Source: Planctomycetales bacterium (GTDB lineage Bacteria > Planctomycetota > Planctomycetia > Planctomycetales > Planctomycetaceae). From it: a DNA stretch of 64,000 bases. Positions 46,326-53,678 of this stretch are shown here, piece by piece. Each line of letters opens with the position of its first letter. The stretch's first letter is position 1. Location: assembly GCA_026400835.1 (NCBI GenBank), contig JAPLOA010000080.1:124001-188000 (forward strand), read 5' to 3'. The notes under the pieces are model-generated. The model did no database searches. It was not told where the DNA came from and saw only the letters and a list, made by a program, of their open reading frames with translations. Both the position numbers and the translations under genes were made by a program.

Positions 46326-49300
46326 ATGACTCATCGCCCTTCTCGCATTGCTCGCTGTTTTCGCCTGTTTGGGGAGTTGGGAAGCGCGGATGGTCGGCGT
46401 CGCGCTAAAGTGGGGGGACAAGTTCCTTCTGAGTCCCTTGAGACTCGGCAGATGCTCGCGGCCGATCTGACCAGGTTAGTGTACGACGCGACTTTGCTGG
46501 ATCAGGACGCAGCGTCAACGACCGTAGACAGTTTTTTTGTGGCGTTTGATAAATCGATGAGTGCCACAGCCATCAAGAATGCCACGGGTGCTAAATCCGT
46601 GGATGCGTTCCCGCTGATTCCAAACAGCTTTAATTTGACTTTTGACTCATCTATGTCCCTGGAGCAGGCTGCGGGGGCATTCAGTTCCATTTCTGGCTTC
46701 AAGTACCTCTATCCCAATCTGCCGCTTGAACGAGTCGTCAAATTTGTTCCGAACGACCCGTTGTTCGTCTCGCAATGGCACCTGCAGAATACAGGGCAGA
46801 CTGGCGGAACCGTTGGTGCTGATGCGAACATCACAGGAGCCTGGGACACACAAACCGGTGCGGGTGTTGTCATTGGGATTGTTGACGATGGAGTGCAACT
46901 TGCTCATCCTGACCTGGCCGCAAATGTTGCCAGTGGCCTCAGTTATGACTATGTGTCTAACGACTCAGACCCTACGCCGGCAGCGAACTCTGGTGACGAT
47001 CATGGGACTGCAGTAGCAGGCGTTGCAGCTGGCGTTGGAAACAATTCTTTAGGAATCACAGGCGCGGCTTACGAAGCGTCAATTGCCGGCATCAGACTTC
47101 TGGGATTTAATCAGACGGCAGCGACCGAATCAGCCGCTTTGAATCATCGCACTCAATCAATTCACATATACAACAATAGTTGGGGTCCTGTAGACTTTCC
47201 GGTCATCGCAGCAATGCCGCCACAGGTAGAAGCTGCGTTGAGCGCTGGGACACGACTTGGCCGAGGTGGGTTGGGATCGGTCTACACATGGGCGGGAGGA
47301 AATGGTCGCTCAGGTGGAGACTATTCAAACTACGATCAGTATGCTAGTTCTCGCCATGTAATCGCGGTGGGTGCCATCACACATGACGGACGGCAATCGT
47401 CTTACAGTGAAAGCGGCTCGAATCTGCTCGTTTCGGCTTATTCCAGCTCTCCTGGGATTGTGACAACGGACCTCGTGGGTGCCGACGGCTACGATGCAAC
47501 AGATTACACCAGCACCTTTGGCGGTACTTCATCAGCAACTCCGCTCGTCTCTGGCGTCGTCGCGCTGATGCTGGAAGCGAACCCGAATCTATCCTACCGG
47601 GATGTGATGGATCTACTTGCTCGGACGGCGGAGCATAACGATCCAACTGATGCGGGATGGACTGTGAATGGTGCTGGCCTGAGAGTGAATCACAAGTATG
47701 GATTTGGTGCCATTGATGCTCAGGCAGCGGTCAACGCTTCACTAACTCATAATCCGCTGGGACCTCTTTCGAGCCGGTCCACTCCAGTGGTTCGAGTGAA
47801 CCGTACAGTTCCAGACAACACTACAAGCGGAATTGTTGCGAATGTCACGACGAACATTCAGTTGAACCTTGAACACGTGGAACTGGTCCTTAACGCATCG
47901 CATCAGAATCGCGGTGACCTCGCAATCACATTGGTTTCTCCGAGCGGTACACGTTCGGTGATGGCCCTTGCCCGAACTCAGGACTCTGGAAACAATTATA
48001 CGAACTGGGTTTTTACAACGACAAGGAACTGGGGAGAGCGCTCAGACGGAACATGGACTGTTGAAGTGGCTGACCTGCTGACGGGAACCACGGGATCGTT
48101 CACTGATTTCCAACTGCGATTCCACGGGACTGAACTGCCGTTGTCAATGACCATTAATCCAGCCTCTATCGCGGAAAACGCCGGTGCGGGCGCAGCAACG
48201 GGCACCGTAACAAGAGGGTCAGGGGTTAGTCTTGCTCAGCCACTCGTTGTCACATTAACAAGTAGCGACACATCAGAAGCAACGGTTCCCGCCACGGTAA
48301 CAATTCCAGCCGGTGCCGCTTCGGCGACCTTCCCGATTCGCGCAATCGACGATACATTGGCTGATGGAACACAGCGAGTCGACATACAGGCATCCGCAAC
48401 GATTACTGGAACACTGAATACCGTTTCTTCACCGCTCAACGTCCTCGATCATGAGACTTTGACGATGACGATCGACAAGTCTCAGATTGCAGAGACTGCT
48501 GGGAACGGGGCCGCGGTGATTACAATCACCCGCAGCAACACCGACGTTGCAGCTCCCAATTCCTTCGCTGTCGTCAATAACCGACTTCTTGAGCACAATC
48601 CATCCGGGGTTCAGGTAAGTGATCGCGCAATCCCCTGGCCAACAGGCGCTCGCCCGGTCGGTGAAATCGCCAGGGACCTGGTTGTGATGGAGAACGGTCG
48701 CATCGCAGTTCATGATGGAACTTCGACGGGCTATGTCTCGATCCTGAATCCGGCAAACGATGCATGGCAGCATATCCTCGTTCCGGGGCTTTCCTCAGAC
48801 CCGGCGGTTTCTGGCAGCGGAGGCATCTCGTCATCGGGCGATTTCGTATTCCTGTCAGACATGTCGACATCCAACGCCGACCCATTTGGCGTCGTGAGGG
48901 TCGATACGATTACTCAAAGTGTCACACGATTTGCGAACAAGTCGCTTGGATATCGGATGTTTGTGAAGGATGTCTTTGGCGACAACATCCTTGAAATCGA
49001 CCTGCAGACAGGTACCACTCTCAACACCATCCCAATACCCGCCGCGCTCGGCACAGGCTCTGATTTCGACAATGGCATGGCGTTCGATGGAACGAGTCTT
49101 TGGCTCACCGGCGGTTCTCTTGCACCAAATTCGCTCTATAAAATCGACCCGGATAACGGGGCGGTGCTGGAAACTCACTTCGTCAGCACTTTTGGCGTGA
49201 GTTCCTGGGATGGTCTAGCATGGCTGAATGATCAGCTATATTTGCTGAGTGGCAGCGTAAACAGCGTTATCGCAGCATACGACCCGGTCCAGCGGCGAAT

Positions 49301-52300
49301 TACGAGTACGCTGGACATTGACAGCATAAACTCCGTCAGTTTGACCATCTGGAAAGGACTGGCTGGCATTAAGGGACCGGATCGTCTGGTTGCGACTACC
49401 GTTCTGGGAGATCTGATCGTTGAAATTGATCCCCGAACGGGGGTGATTACCAATCAGTGGCAGAGAGGAATCAACTCGACTCCATACGGTATCGGTGCTG
49501 CAAATGGTGAAATCTACATTGGTGAATTTCTGAATGGATTGGTTGAAGTCTATGATCGCCAGGGCACATTGCAGAGGATTATGGACGTCAATCTGGCATC
49601 GATCGAAGGTCTGGCAGCATTAGGCGGTGACGATGTTCAGGGACTGGTGCCGACAAATTATCGTTACCGAGATATTTACTCCGGCCTCGACAGTAAGTTC
49701 TATGTCCTTGATTCCGCTGGCACTGTGTTCGGCCGGTACGATTCCACGACGTTGGCTGTGGATGAATTCTTCGATCTTGCAAGGCCGGTGAATGCTATAG
49801 CCGTAGCAGCCGATGGCAGCATTTGGGGTGCTGGTGGGGATGGCATACTTTATCACTTCAGTGCCACAGGAACCTTGATTGAGCAACTGACAATCGGATC
49901 GGTCTCGCTCATTGACATTGACCTGAACGTTTCCGGCCAGATACTTCTCACGTCGTCCGCTGGCAGAGTTTACAAGACGAGTACGTCGCTCGTCGCTCCA
50001 ACCTCGTTCTCTGCGGGCTCATCTCCTGCGTTTGCCAGTTTCGGACGACACCAGACGCTGCCTTCCGGTGACCTTTTTGTGCAGCTGACAAACAGTGATC
50101 CGACAGAAGCCTCTATACCACTTTCAGTCGTTATCCCGGTCGGACAGCAGTCAGTAACAGTTTCGTTGGATGCAGTCGACGACAATATCACGGACGGCAC
50201 TCAGACGGTAACATTTACGGCGTCTGCGATAGGTTATGCTTCTGTCGCGTCAGCCTCGATTGGTGTTCTGGACGCGGAATCTGTGGGAGTCAATATCGTC
50301 GCCGGATCAATCTCCGAGGCCGCTGGATCTGGTGCGACTCAGGCACAGATTTTTCGCACGGACATTGACGGACCGTTCAGCTACGTCGGCCCCAGACAAG
50401 TGTTTGCCAACAACGCGGCTCAGACAATTCTGGATAACGACAAGATCAACTCTTACATCAACGTTCCCACTCAGACTTCGCGTTTGACGGACGTTAACGT
50501 GACACTCAGCCTGACTCATTCTTTCCTGGCCGACCTTGATGTTTATCTTGTCAGTCCTCGCGGCACCCGAATTGAACTGGTGAGTGACCTGGTCTCAAAT
50601 GAGCCAGACATGATCTCTACAACCTTAGACAATGTTGCACCCAATGGAATACTCACCGGCAGTTCGCCATTTACGGGCAGATTCCGACCGGAAGGGACGC
50701 TTGAGGATTTGAATGGCGAGAATCCATCAGGAGTCTGGACACTCGAAATCACCGATGATAATCCTACAGACTTCGGAACTTTGAAGTCGTGGGCTTTGAA
50801 TATCGAAACAATCGGCCTCGCACCGATGACTGTCAACCTCACAAAAACCGGCGATACTGATGAGATTGATGTGCAGACCACTGTGGTGATTCCTGCAAAT
50901 CAATCCAGTGTTTTTGTTCCCATCAACGCTGTCGACGATACTGTTCTGGACGGTACCAGGGTATCGGGAGTGAGAGCCACCACCACATCATCGGGATACA
51001 TTTCCGGTTCGGACACCGTGAATGTCCTCGATCGTGAAATACTCCAGTTCACGGTGAACAAGTCGACCGTTCCTGAAACAGCCGGCGCTGGTGCGATTAC
51101 GGGCACGCTGACAAGACTCAACACGGACATCAACGCCAGCTTTACGGTATCACTGACAAGCAGTGACTCATCAGAAATCACTGTACCTGCGACGGTCACC
51201 ATACCGGCTGGCAGGTCATTCGTGACTTTCCCGATTACCGTTGTGGATGACACGATTTCTGATGGAACTCAGACCGTCACCGTCCGGGTAGTGACATCGC
51301 AGTACGTCGTCGACAAAAATCAGATCATTTCGGTAACCGATGTTGAACCAAAACTCGTCCTGTCGAGCAGTATTAGTTCAGTGGCTGAAAATGCCAGGAC
51401 CTTCAGCGCTACGGTTACCCGGCAACAGCAGACCGACATTAGCCAACCAGTGATCGTGAGTCTCTCCGTCTCATCGTTCACGGGGTTGTCCTCTCCGATC
51501 AGAGTTCCGGCAACAATCACGATTCCAGCCGGTCGAGTCGACCAGACATTCGTCGTAACGGTGTTGGACGACCAACTGCTGGACGGGACACAGACAGCAA
51601 CGGTTCGGGCCCGGGCTACAGGCGCCACGGAAGGGACAATCACGTTCCAGATCACAGACTACGAAACGCTGTCGCTTAGCCTCAGCAAAACTGCTGTCCG
51701 CGAAGACGCTGGTCGGGCGGCCGCCAGAGGCACTGTGACGCGAAGCAATCTTGACTATGCTTTCCCGGTGACAGTGACATTAACCAGCAGTGATGTGTCT
51801 GAAATCAAAGTTCCCACCACCATCACGATACCTTCCGGTCAACTGAGTGTCAGCTTTGACATTGAGGCTGTTAACGACCCATCCCTCGACGGGTCACAGA
51901 CCGTCAGGATTTCTGCCTCGGCATTAAACTATGTAGGTGCATCGTCAACAATCACAGTTGACGACCATGAACCTCCGGTGGTCACGGCTCCGGCGGCAGT
52001 TATCGTCGATCCAAACCCAACCGTGCAGTGGATTGCAGTTCCAAATGCAACGCGTTACGAGGTGCTGTTGCAGAACCTTAGCACAGGGTCAGAACAGCGT
52101 TACCAGGTTCCAGGTACGAGTACAACTTTCAAAATTCAGAAGCCGGTTGCTGATTCACTGGGTCTTGGTCGATATCGAGTCCTTGTTCGCGCCTATGATC
52201 AATTGGAGCGAGCAGGATACTGGAGCATTGCACGTGACTTCCGCGTCGTGACAGCCCCAACTATTATTGGACCATCCACGACCTCGTCACTCGTCTCCGG

Positions 52301-53678
52301 CACTTTCCCCGAAATCGTTTGGACCCCGGTTTTGGACGCATCGGGTTATGAACTCACGGTCCATAATCTGACTACGGGAAAAATGAATGTCATCTCACAA
52401 AAGAATATCCCCACGACTAGTTACCGGGCAGTGGAGGTACTTGGAACAGGAACTTTTCGGGCTACCGTCCGTGCGTTTCTCTCTGTGGCATCGCAGGGGC
52501 AGGCTCCGGTCATTGACTACGGTAACTTCAGTGCGTCATTAGACTTCACAGTGCTCGCAGCCCCGAGTGTGTTGACTCCAGTAAGTGGGGGAACTTTTGA
52601 CCGCAGTCCGATACTGAGCTGGTCACGAATCACTGGTGCAGCCACTTATGACGTCATGGTGCGTAATGCTCAGACACAGGTCATTGTGTTCCGGGATCAA
52701 TCGGTGCCGAGTACAAGCATCCGGATTCCTCAGGACCTGCAGAATGCAAACTACGAGGTTCTGGTAAGAGCACAGAGCGGACGATTCTACAGTAACTGGT
52801 CGGCCTCAAGATTCTTCGCGGTTGGTGCATCTCCAGGAATCACCTCACCGTTGGCTAACGAAAAAGCGGGGGCGCAGCCAAAGTTCGTCTGGACCAGCAT
52901 CACAGGTGCGGAGCGGTACGAGGTTCGCGTCCTTAATCGGGACACAAATACTTATGTGATCCAGGTCGGCAACGTCACTGGCACTTCATACACGCCGACG
53001 ACGAAACTGCCCCTTGGAGAGTATCAGGTAACAGTTCGTGCCATCAGCCTGCTCGGTGAAATCACCAACTGGAGTGCTCCAGTGAACTTCGTGGGCGGGG
53101 CAGCTCCTGTAATCAGCAGACCGACTAATAACTCTTCAAGTGGCAGAATGCCTTCTATCGCGTGGTCCGCAGTAGATGGAGCGACAGCTTACAACGTGAA
53201 GATTGTTAATCTTGCGAGCAATGTTACAGTCGTAGCGACGGGAAACTTATCGAGTACCGTCTTTACCCCCACAACAAATCTTGCTGCAGGCAAGTATCGC
53301 ATATGGGTTCGTGCGGTGAGTGCTCAGGGACATTTGTCCAACTGGAGTACTGCTGTTGACATTACCGTCGCCAGCAATGTTATCGTCGAAGAAGAGTTGA
53401 CGATGCTGGGAACTCCGGTCGTGGCTGCGGCCCTGTCGGTACGGCAGGTAGAGTCCGTCCCATCGGGTGCAGAATCCACTGTTCGTGAGAATTCCTCGTC
53501 GACGAAGTTTATCTCCGCAGCAATTCAGAACGTTGCTGAAGAAGCGAATTCGGCAGCGGATGTTATCGAAGCAGAAACGATTGCCTCTGCCACCGACCAT
53601 GTAATGGCCGCCTGGGACGTTTCTGACTGGTGGAATACGACTGCGATTGTCAACGAGCAGAATAATGAAGCGATCTGA
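46326..53678 (+). CDS. Giant secreted subtilase with P-domains, nested Calx-beta-like repeats and Fn3-like repeats
   Basis: A 2450-residue surface protein. The N-terminus is basic and carries the planctomycete export motif LETRQMLA (38-45). The S8 subtilisin domain (about 165-475) has D187 (VDDG), H226 (DDHGT) and S402 (GGTSSATP). A P/homoB domain follows (485-605). Then come six Calx-beta-like repeats. Repeat 1 spans about 606-711. Repeat 2 (712-744 plus 1248-1318) is split by a beta-propeller (745-1247). Repeat 3 (1320-1349 plus 1501-1568) is split by a second P-domain. Repeats 4-6 (1573-1880) are intact. Five Fn3-like repeats of about 90 residues (1888-2349) end in WS-type strands, followed by an acidic tail. 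Its roles in adhesion and proteolysis outside the cell are inferred. A terminator follows. Confidence 0.9.
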   Translation: MTHRPSRIARCFRLFGELGSADGRRRAKVGGQVPSESLETRQMLAADLTRLVYDATLLDQDAASTTVDSFFVAFDKSMSATAIKNATGAKSVDAFPLIPNSFNLTFDSSMSLEQAAGAFSSISGFKYLYPNLPLERVVKFVPNDPLFVSQWHLQNTGQTGGTVGADANITGAWDTQTGAGVVIGIVDDGVQLAHPDLAANVASGLSYDYVSNDSDPTPAANSGDDHGTAVAGVAAGVGNNSLGITGAAYEASIAGIRLLGFNQTAATESAALNHRTQSIHIYNNSWGPVDFPVIAAMPPQVEAALSAGTRLGRGGLGSVYTWAGGNGRSGGDYSNYDQYASSRHVIAVGAITHDGRQSSYSESGSNLLVSAYSSSPGIVTTDLVGADGYDATDYTSTFGGTSSATPLVSGVVALMLEANPNLSYRDVMDLLARTAEHNDPTDAGWTVNGAGLRVNHKYGFGAIDAQAAVNASLTHNPLGPLSSRSTPVVRVNRTVPDNTTSGIVANVTTNIQLNLEHVELVLNASHQNRGDLAITLVSPSGTRSVMALARTQDSGNNYTNWVFTTTRNWGERSDGTWTVEVADLLTGTTGSFTDFQLRFHGTELPLSMTINPASIAENAGAGAATGTVTRGSGVSLAQPLVVTLTSSDTSEATVPATVTIPAGAASATFPIRAIDDTLADGTQRVDIQASATITGTLNTVSSPLNVLDHETLTMTIDKSQIAETAGNGAAVITITRSNTDVAAPNSFAVVNNRLLEHNPSGVQVSDRAIPWPTGARPVGEIARDLVVMENGRIAVHDGTSTGYVSILNPANDAWQHILVPGLSSDPAVSGSGGISSSGDFVFLSDMSTSNADPFGVVRVDTITQSVTRFANKSLGYRMFVKDVFGDNILEIDLQTGTTLNTIPIPAALGTGSDFDNGMAFDGTSLWLTGGSLAPNSLYKIDPDNGAVLETHFVSTFGVSSWDGLAWLNDQLYLLSGSVNSVIAAYDPVQRRITSTLDIDSINSVSLTIWKGLAGIKGPDRLVATTVLGDLIVEIDPRTGVITNQWQRGINSTPYGIGAANGEIYIGEFLNGLVEVYDRQGTLQRIMDVNLASIEGLAALGGDDVQGLVPTNYRYRDIYSGLDSKFYVLDSAGTVFGRYDSTTLAVDEFFDLARPVNAIAVAADGSIWGAGGDGILYHFSATGTLIEQLTIGSVSLIDIDLNVSGQILLTSSAGRVYKTSTSLVAPTSFSAGSSPAFASFGRHQTLPSGDLFVQLTNSDPTEASIPLSVVIPVGQQSVTVSLDAVDDNITDGTQTVTFTASAIGYASVASASIGVLDAESVGVNIVAGSISEAAGSGATQAQIFRTDIDGPFSYVGPRQVFANNAAQTILDNDKINSYINVPTQTSRLTDVNVTLSLTHSFLADLDVYLVSPRGTRIELVSDLVSNEPDMISTTLDNVAPNGILTGSSPFTGRFRPEGTLEDLNGENPSGVWTLEITDDNPTDFGTLKSWALNIETIGLAPMTVNLTKTGDTDEIDVQTTVVIPANQSSVFVPINAVDDTVLDGTRVSGVRATTTSSGYISGSDTVNVLDREILQFTVNKSTVPETAGAGAITGTLTRLNTDINASFTVSLTSSDSSEITVPATVTIPAGRSFVTFPITVVDDTISDGTQTVTVRVVTSQYVVDKNQIISVTDVEPKLVLSSSISSVAENARTFSATVTRQQQTDISQPVIVSLSVSSFTGLSSPIRVPATITIPAGRVDQTFVVTVLDDQLLDGTQTATVRARATGATEGTITFQITDYETLSLSLSKTAVREDAGRAAARGTVTRSNLDYAFPVTVTLTSSDVSEIKVPTTITIPSGQLSVSFDIEAVNDPSLDGSQTVRISASALNYVGASSTITVDDHEPPVVTAPAAVIVDPNPTVQWIAVPNATRYEVLLQNLSTGSEQRYQVPGTSTTFKIQKPVADSLGLGRYRVLVRAYDQLERAGYWSIARDFRVVTAPTIIGPSTTSSLVSGTFPEIVWTPVLDASGYELTVHNLTTGKMNVISQKNIPTTSYRAVEVLGTGTFRATVRAFLSVASQGQAPVIDYGNFSASLDFTVLAAPSVLTPVSGGTFDRSPILSWSRITGAATYDVMVRNAQTQVIVFRDQSVPSTSIRIPQDLQNANYEVLVRAQSGRFYSNWSASRFFAVGASPGITSPLANEKAGAQPKFVWTSITGAERYEVRVLNRDTNTYVIQVGNVTGTSYTPTTKLPLGEYQVTVRAISLLGEITNWSAPVNFVGGAAPVISRPTNNSSSGRMPSIAWSAVDGATAYNVKIVNLASNVTVVATGNLSSTVFTPTTNLAAGKYRIWVRAVSAQGHLSNWSTAVDITVASNVIVEEELTMLGTPVVAAALSVRQVESVPSGAESTVRENSSSTKFISAAIQNVAEEANSAADVIEAETIASATDHVMAAWDVSDWWNTTAIVNEQNNEAI

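Follow-up and report, generated by a model that had tools for sequence, protein, structure and literature searches.

The 64,000-nucleotide stretch of Planctomycetales DNA analysed here (contig JAPLOA010000080.1, positions 124,001 to 188,000; hereafter the window) belongs to a genome of 7.58 Mb in 112 contigs (G000) and carries on its + strand, at 46326-53678, an open reading frame (ORF) for a giant protease of 2450 residues; all the features described below lie on this strand. A subtilase (S8) catalytic domain at residues 178-461 (46857-47708; Pfam PF00082, E-value 1.6e-44) is followed by a first P-domain at residues 515-599 (47868-48122; PF01483), which stands behind the protease and is not inserted. 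Six Calx-beta-like repeats (R1 to R6) of about 101 residues each span residues 606-1883. The first of them, R1, is uninterrupted (residues 606-711, 48141-48458; repeat profile positions 1-101 at residues 606-710, 114.5 bits). The second, R2, is split by a guest of 503 residues, and profile comparison confirms this split as real and as nested one level deeper than first described, the guest appearing to be a beta-propeller that is itself interrupted by another.

The host profile was built from 52 uninterrupted repeats (R1, R4, R5 and R6 of 13 relatives), with the window and all R2 and R3 repeats excluded. Against this held-out profile, residues 712-744 (R2 N-terminal half, 48459-48557) match model positions 1-33 with 27.8 bits, and residues 1248-1318 match positions 33-101 with 77.7 bits, the C-terminal half being assigned to residues 1248-1319 (50067-50282). 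None of 1000 shuffled sequences reached the observed score of either half (the largest values were 10.1 and 10.4 bits), and the best match of the host profile within the guest was -3.8 bits. An earlier note on this DNA had proposed that R2 breaks off after residue 744 and resumes at residue 1248, and that a guest at 48558-50066 sits inside the repeat rather than being simply concatenated with it. These coordinates agree with residues 745-1247 of the ORF, the peptides quoted in the note are located at residues 712, 740 (DVAAP) and 1248, and a host-guest arrangement is indicated by halves that are complementary and abut at one model position, by its recurrence in relatives and by the uninterrupted R2 present in two genes.

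The relatives were compared with an earlier repeat profile over 14 long genes (the window gene and L032-L044); the sequences in this profile had been picked by match length alone and may include a piece of a split R2. With it, R1 and R4-R6 were found whole, and the C-terminal halves of R2 and R3 were found, in all 14 long genes, while the N-terminal half of R2 was found in 13, scoring at least 8.9 bits in 12. Pairwise alignment of window residues 712-1318 passes through the guest into both host halves in 13/13 relatives.

The guest appears to comprise an outer propeller of about 265 residues and an inner one of about 227 (residues 877-1103, 48954-49634). The outer profile, derived from four uninterrupted outer units (L052, L054, L055 and L023), is broken in the window at position 137 of 268: residues 751-873 match positions 13-137 (87.7 bits) and residues 1112-1240 match positions 137-268 (78.8 bits), the two parts being assigned to residues 745-876 (48558-48953) and 1104-1247 (49635-50066). 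Between them, the inner profile, made from four free-standing inner units, matches with its positions 10-219 at residues 886-1103 (148.4 bits), and residues 877-1103 align end to end with lone units of 217-230 residues in L047, L048, L049 and L051. The lone unit of L047, L048 and L049 adjoins repeats that we read as GGxGxD-type. Outer units devoid of an inner one (257-283 residues) occur free-standing in L052, L054 and L055 and within a Calx-beta-like loop in L023. The outer profile matches in two parts in 14/14 long genes, with the inner match lying between the parts or partly overlapping the first of them, as in L038, L040 and L041. In L057 the inner unit occupies another place, after the N-terminal strands of the outer propeller and ahead of its first blade (residues 817-1223), in a contig that ends before the outer propeller and the host repeat are complete. 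Because it is found alone, is absent from some outer units and stands at two places inside another domain, we take the inner unit to be a domain of its own. R2 and its guest therefore show, as judged from their profile matches, the order A1-B1-C-B2-A2 of a nested insertion, with an outer propeller interrupted by a complete inner one.

Counting by strand pattern gives about five blades for the inner propeller and about six for the outer one (N-terminal strands plus about two blades, then about three and a closing strand). The assignment to propellers is based on profile hits that link the guest with propellers both designed and natural, and on a Foldseek search with the model of R2 and its guest, where the top matches among the 50 listed were propellers of many sizes, with template modelling (TM) scores of 0.13-0.25 over the query; this search of the whole model did not tell one ring from two. 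What the earlier note called an NHL/SMP-30-like propeller of about 500 residues is rather a pair of nested propellers, and the Pfam propeller families stay below their cut-offs (SGL 16.7 bits against 26.3; NHL not listed at E-values up to 1). A MAFFT alignment made without anchors set part of the N-terminal half of the uninterrupted repeats against SAGSSPAFASFGRHQTLP, as if a second strand B stood at the end of the guest. This candidate was rejected; SAGSSPAFASFGRHQTLP is read as the closing strand of the guest itself, since outer propellers that stand free end in much the same way. Two further observations concern the separate units: the outer propeller of L053 runs across two reading frames, perhaps through an assembly error or decay, and a metalloprotease-like motif (HEIGHALGFGT or close to it) was seen by eye behind the lone inner propeller of L045, L047 and L049.

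What speaks most strongly for a host with a guest, again as read from sequence, is a complete repeat with a bare loop at the same place of the gene. In two genes of the same genus, L056 (genome G118, S8 head) and L060 (G122, M36 head), R2 appears uninterrupted, matching model positions 1-101 at residues 615-715 (108.2 bits) and 808-906 (88.6 bits), respectively, and is flanked by R1 ahead and by a P-domain-bearing R3 behind. When the last 70 residues of these repeats were compared with 85 repeats, the best five matches (L056) and the best three (L060) were R2 C-terminal halves of filled genes. An intermediate state is found in L023, in which the outer propeller stands alone in the same R2 loop, with host halves at residues 343-372 and 638-709 and no match to the inner profile.

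In a survey of 170 genomes of the order, the outer profile matched in 31, and in two parts in 22. The second part starts at positions 133-138 in all 22, and the first ends at 135-141 in 15 and at 177-191 in the other seven. An outer copy unbroken over at least 200 positions occurs in seven genomes, one of which (G015) also has a split copy. Among 294 genomes of the phylum, the split unit was found only in the window's own, with partial matches in five others; 8 or 15 candidates were scored per genome in these surveys. A scan of genome contigs gave one relative, whose sequence ends inside R2, and one scan of viral contigs gave no relative. The candidate split Calx-beta repeats in proteins encoded on contigs C35 and C32 of the same genome were rejected after their sequences had been read, as they held no recognisable guest. 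In a tree of 23 R3 regions, well-supported branches force at least two changes of the empty label. A single event, be it gain or loss, therefore does not explain both empty genes. The tree took 23 of 27 genes, the other four being those with two P-domains (L036, L044) and those whose R3 is incomplete or absent (L016, L020), and it should be noted that L064 was entered as filled, though its contig ends inside R2.

The next repeat, for which the same split had been suggested, supports this in its C-terminal half (residues 1499-1572, 50820-51041): residues 1499-1571 match positions 32-101 of the held-out profile with 64.4 bits, unmatched by any of 1000 shuffles. The N-terminal half (residues 1320-1348, 50283-50369), in contrast, matches only positions 6-28 with 10.8 bits and is weak on its own, because this barely exceeds the largest of 1000 shuffles (10.4 bits). 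The break in R3 falls between positions 28 and 32, equivalent to position 33 in R2. Its guest (residues 1349-1498, 50370-50819), left unnamed in the earlier note, is a P-domain, matching PF01483 over positions 2-86 of 86 with 61.2 bits (cut-off 21; E-value 1.1e-16), and the Foldseek search with it gave furin first and Kex2 later. A P-domain was present in R3 of 7/7 other genes scanned, with two copies in L036 and L044, where they lie in the split R3 at residues 1345-1738 and 1613-2027, respectively. In L042, about 110 extra residues stand in R3 ahead of the P-domain (residues 1522-1690).

As to the family of the repeats, the host profile matches calcium-binding domain 1 of NCX1 in four sequences (E-values 5.2e-4 to 8.5e-4, positions 8-90 or 9-90), and scores a protein-asparaginase domain higher (1.2e-5). 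The whole protein gives 12.1 bits with Pfam Calx-beta, below the cut-off. The repeats are here termed Calx-beta-like because those tested miss the Pfam cut-off. The conserved acidic motif of the host repeats aligns with that of NCX1: E12, D99 and E101 are invariant in 32/32 uninterrupted repeats, with D70 and D74 nearly so, at positions which we take to be those of the calcium ligands of NCX1. In the split R2, E12 of the N-terminal half and D575, D579 and E607 of the C-terminal half are invariant in 14/14 genes, and a bound calcium ion, if these residues act as in NCX1, would tie the two halves together. The place of the split corresponds to what we assume to be the B-C loop of NCX1 calcium-binding domain 1.

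Structure prediction bears on this arrangement indirectly. In the AlphaFold model of R2 with its guest, block values of the predicted local distance difference test (pLDDT) ran from 79 to 92 over residues 711-740, from 78 to 92 over residues 1251-1319 and from 51 to 86 (for the most part 66 to 86) over the inner propeller, the confidence rising and falling near the boundaries of the latter. By reading of the model, strands A, A' and B lie ahead of the guest and strands C-G behind it. The alignment supplied to AlphaFold contained only the window's own pieces, in effect one sequence, with the host halves placed together. The check proposed in the earlier note, whether the halves pack into one sandwich in such a model, is answered indirectly, by good local confidence and the expected strands from an alignment that had joined the halves beforehand. 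For R3 with its P-domain, the host halves reached 74-93 and the guest 28-64 (mean 65.3, predicted TM score, pTM, 0.51).

The remaining parts of the protein are simpler. R4, R5 and R6 (residues 1573-1883, 51042-51974) are uninterrupted, each matching profile positions 1-101 (112.9, 87.6 and 119.5 bits), and a fibronectin III-like part lies in the C-terminal region (52611-52808; Pfam fn3, E-value 1.4e-5). At the other end, a weak Planc_extracel motif at residues 36-47 (18.2 bits, under the cut-off of 25.5) is present, and the protease is probably secreted. The C-terminal part of L001 is nearly identical to that of the window protein. Among 16 genes with the same stalk (the window gene, L032-L044, L056 and L060), the head ahead of it is S8 in eight, M36 fungalysin in three and without a Pfam peptidase in five. 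Since the heads differ, the guests would seem to serve the stalk rather than one catalytic mechanism. The heads of L040-L044 gave no peptidase match, and two of these five have a pre-peptidase C-terminal domain. Elsewhere in the window's genome, a 2759-residue open frame (L050, G000:C35:103835-112111) carries ELWKSDGT-type and Calx-beta repeats, and four of its six Calx-beta matches, each taken on its individual score, pass the Pfam cut-off.

On these grounds we consider it very likely that R2 is a discontinuous domain carrying nested propellers and that R3 is split by a P-domain, in repeats that would build a calcium-stiffened stalk and with guests that may act as binding domains. By the sequence evidence, the chain of R2 leaves the host at the B-C loop and enters the outer propeller. 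After what we count as the second blade of the latter it passes through a whole inner propeller, and from the third blade on it completes the outer one and returns to strand C of R2, both halves of which would fold into one beta-sandwich; R3 is opened at the equivalent place by the P-domain. Considering that acidic residues resembling those of the NCX1 site are divided between the N-terminal and C-terminal halves, the repeats may form a stalk stiffened by calcium, on which the protease heads are exchangeable. The guests would each be tethered through a pair of chain connections to that end of the sandwich which lies opposite the calcium loops, where the sandwich topology presumably places them, and could serve as lateral binding domains bringing surfaces or substrates (likely a surface or a substrate polymer) to the N-terminal protease.

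A number of observations weigh against parts of this interpretation. With the earlier profile, the N-terminal half of R2 scored only 3.1 bits in L036 and was not found in L044, and that of R3 exceeded 3 bits in only 6/14 long genes. The repeats of the window miss the cut-off of Pfam Calx-beta PF03160 (R4 17.5 against 27 bits), and only 3/32 uninterrupted repeats match it at E-values up to 0.01 (best 0.0017). Low scores with the inner profile are seen in L042 (18.1 bits), L044 (23.7 bits) and L043 (31.1 bits). In the model of R2 and its guest the mean pLDDT was 62.4 and the pTM 0.45, with the outer parts at 20-70, and the models are no independent test, because their input alignments had already joined the host halves. 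The empty repeats score nearly the same median bits against R2 as against R6 (68.2 and 69.1 for L056, 59.7 and 58.8 for L060), and their identity as R2 therefore relies on the best matches and on gene order. Finally, the role of the guests as binding domains is suggested by analogy.

Two other architectures were weighed. The guest could be one propeller of ten or eleven blades, some of which were lost or gained in relatives, so that a single insertion rather than two would have occurred. All the blades are indeed propeller-like and consecutive, the Foldseek matches are of many sizes with the low TM scores given above, and the outer parts remain indistinct in the AlphaFold model. We nevertheless regard a single ring as very unlikely, considering that free-standing units of 217-230 residues match the inner unit over its whole length, that seven genomes have the outer profile unbroken for at least 200 positions and 22 have it with a break at a single point, that the inner unit has a different place in L057 and that the model confidence shifts near the inner boundaries. 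Slightly less credible still is a plain chain of domains in which the half-repeats do not pair, the N-terminal one capping R1 or the guest and the C-terminal one being a truncated repeat. The packing of the halves is inferred from sequence, and the guest ends in FASFGRHQTLP, a stretch like strand B at which anchor-free alignments place the repeat; but similar ends (FSSFFVAF, RVFVSF, NFVSF) are kept in free-standing outer propellers and thus belong to the guest, R2 of L056 and L060 fits a whole repeat with no guest, and the residues presumed to make up the calcium site are invariant in the two halves alike.

It is also conceivable, though we think it rather unlikely, that the architecture is as described and the guests are inert spacers or steric shields, which keep the protease off the stalk or fix the spacing of the stalk. 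No catalytic or ligand site was identified in the guests, in the absence of a systematic search, and two genes without the propellers keep everything else. Yet the sequence of the R2 guest is conserved over four genera (38 invariant columns per 503 window residues in 14 sequences), and its two units are met again in other proteins of large size that are probably secreted.

Individual elements of this architecture have known counterparts. The likeness to NCX1 calcium-binding domain 1 consists of the host-profile match, the aligned acidic motif and a split at the place of its B-C loop; the aligned NCX1 chains, however, have no domain at the split place, and the repeats of the window are below the Pfam cut-off. 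In furin and Kex2, a P-domain stands directly behind the protease. The guest of R3 is a P-domain by both Pfam and Foldseek, but here it is a second copy, about 750 residues past the first and inside a Calx-beta-like repeat.

A parallel in architecture is found in the head of integrins, whose hybrid domain is a beta-sandwich. Inner and outer propeller are arranged as in that head insofar as the inner propeller also lies between the second and third blade (by our own blade count) and is also optional. In integrins, the alphaI domain sits in the propeller of the alpha-subunit and betaI in the hybrid domain (PMC11659783). In the window protein, in contrast, what is inserted into the propeller is a second propeller, and the first is in turn inserted into a sandwich; the two systems are likened by architecture alone. 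It is tempting to go further and to propose the B-C loop as a standing dock, in which guests up to five times the size of the host, and themselves nested, are cleanly gained or lost while the fold of the stalk is kept, thus providing a bacterial counterpart of the integrin head whose steps, namely an empty loop, a single guest, a guest within a guest and a different guest, survive in living relatives. We regard this broader view as possible, but somewhat less probable than its contrary.

Nested insertions as such are catalogued in ECOD, with six levels in a cyanobacterial RNA polymerase, and inserted domains are usually smaller than their hosts (median 115 versus 199 residues; PMC13114784); here, a host of about 101 residues carries a guest of 503. 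The word propeller is absent from the main text of that article. The adhesin BapP of Pseudoalteromonas tunicata combines a five-bladed propeller of 226 residues and Calx-beta repeats in one protein (PMC12153261), but there the propeller is N-terminal with the repeats behind it and no insertion, and the likeness is one of description, not of sequence. Among the entries listed from the open-licence PMC literature, no description was found of a propeller nested in another or inserted into a Calx-beta domain. With relatives in which the R2 site is vacant, singly occupied or doubly occupied, natural rather than designed proteins could be used to test in what order the insertions arose, what they cost the host fold and how such a chain folds.

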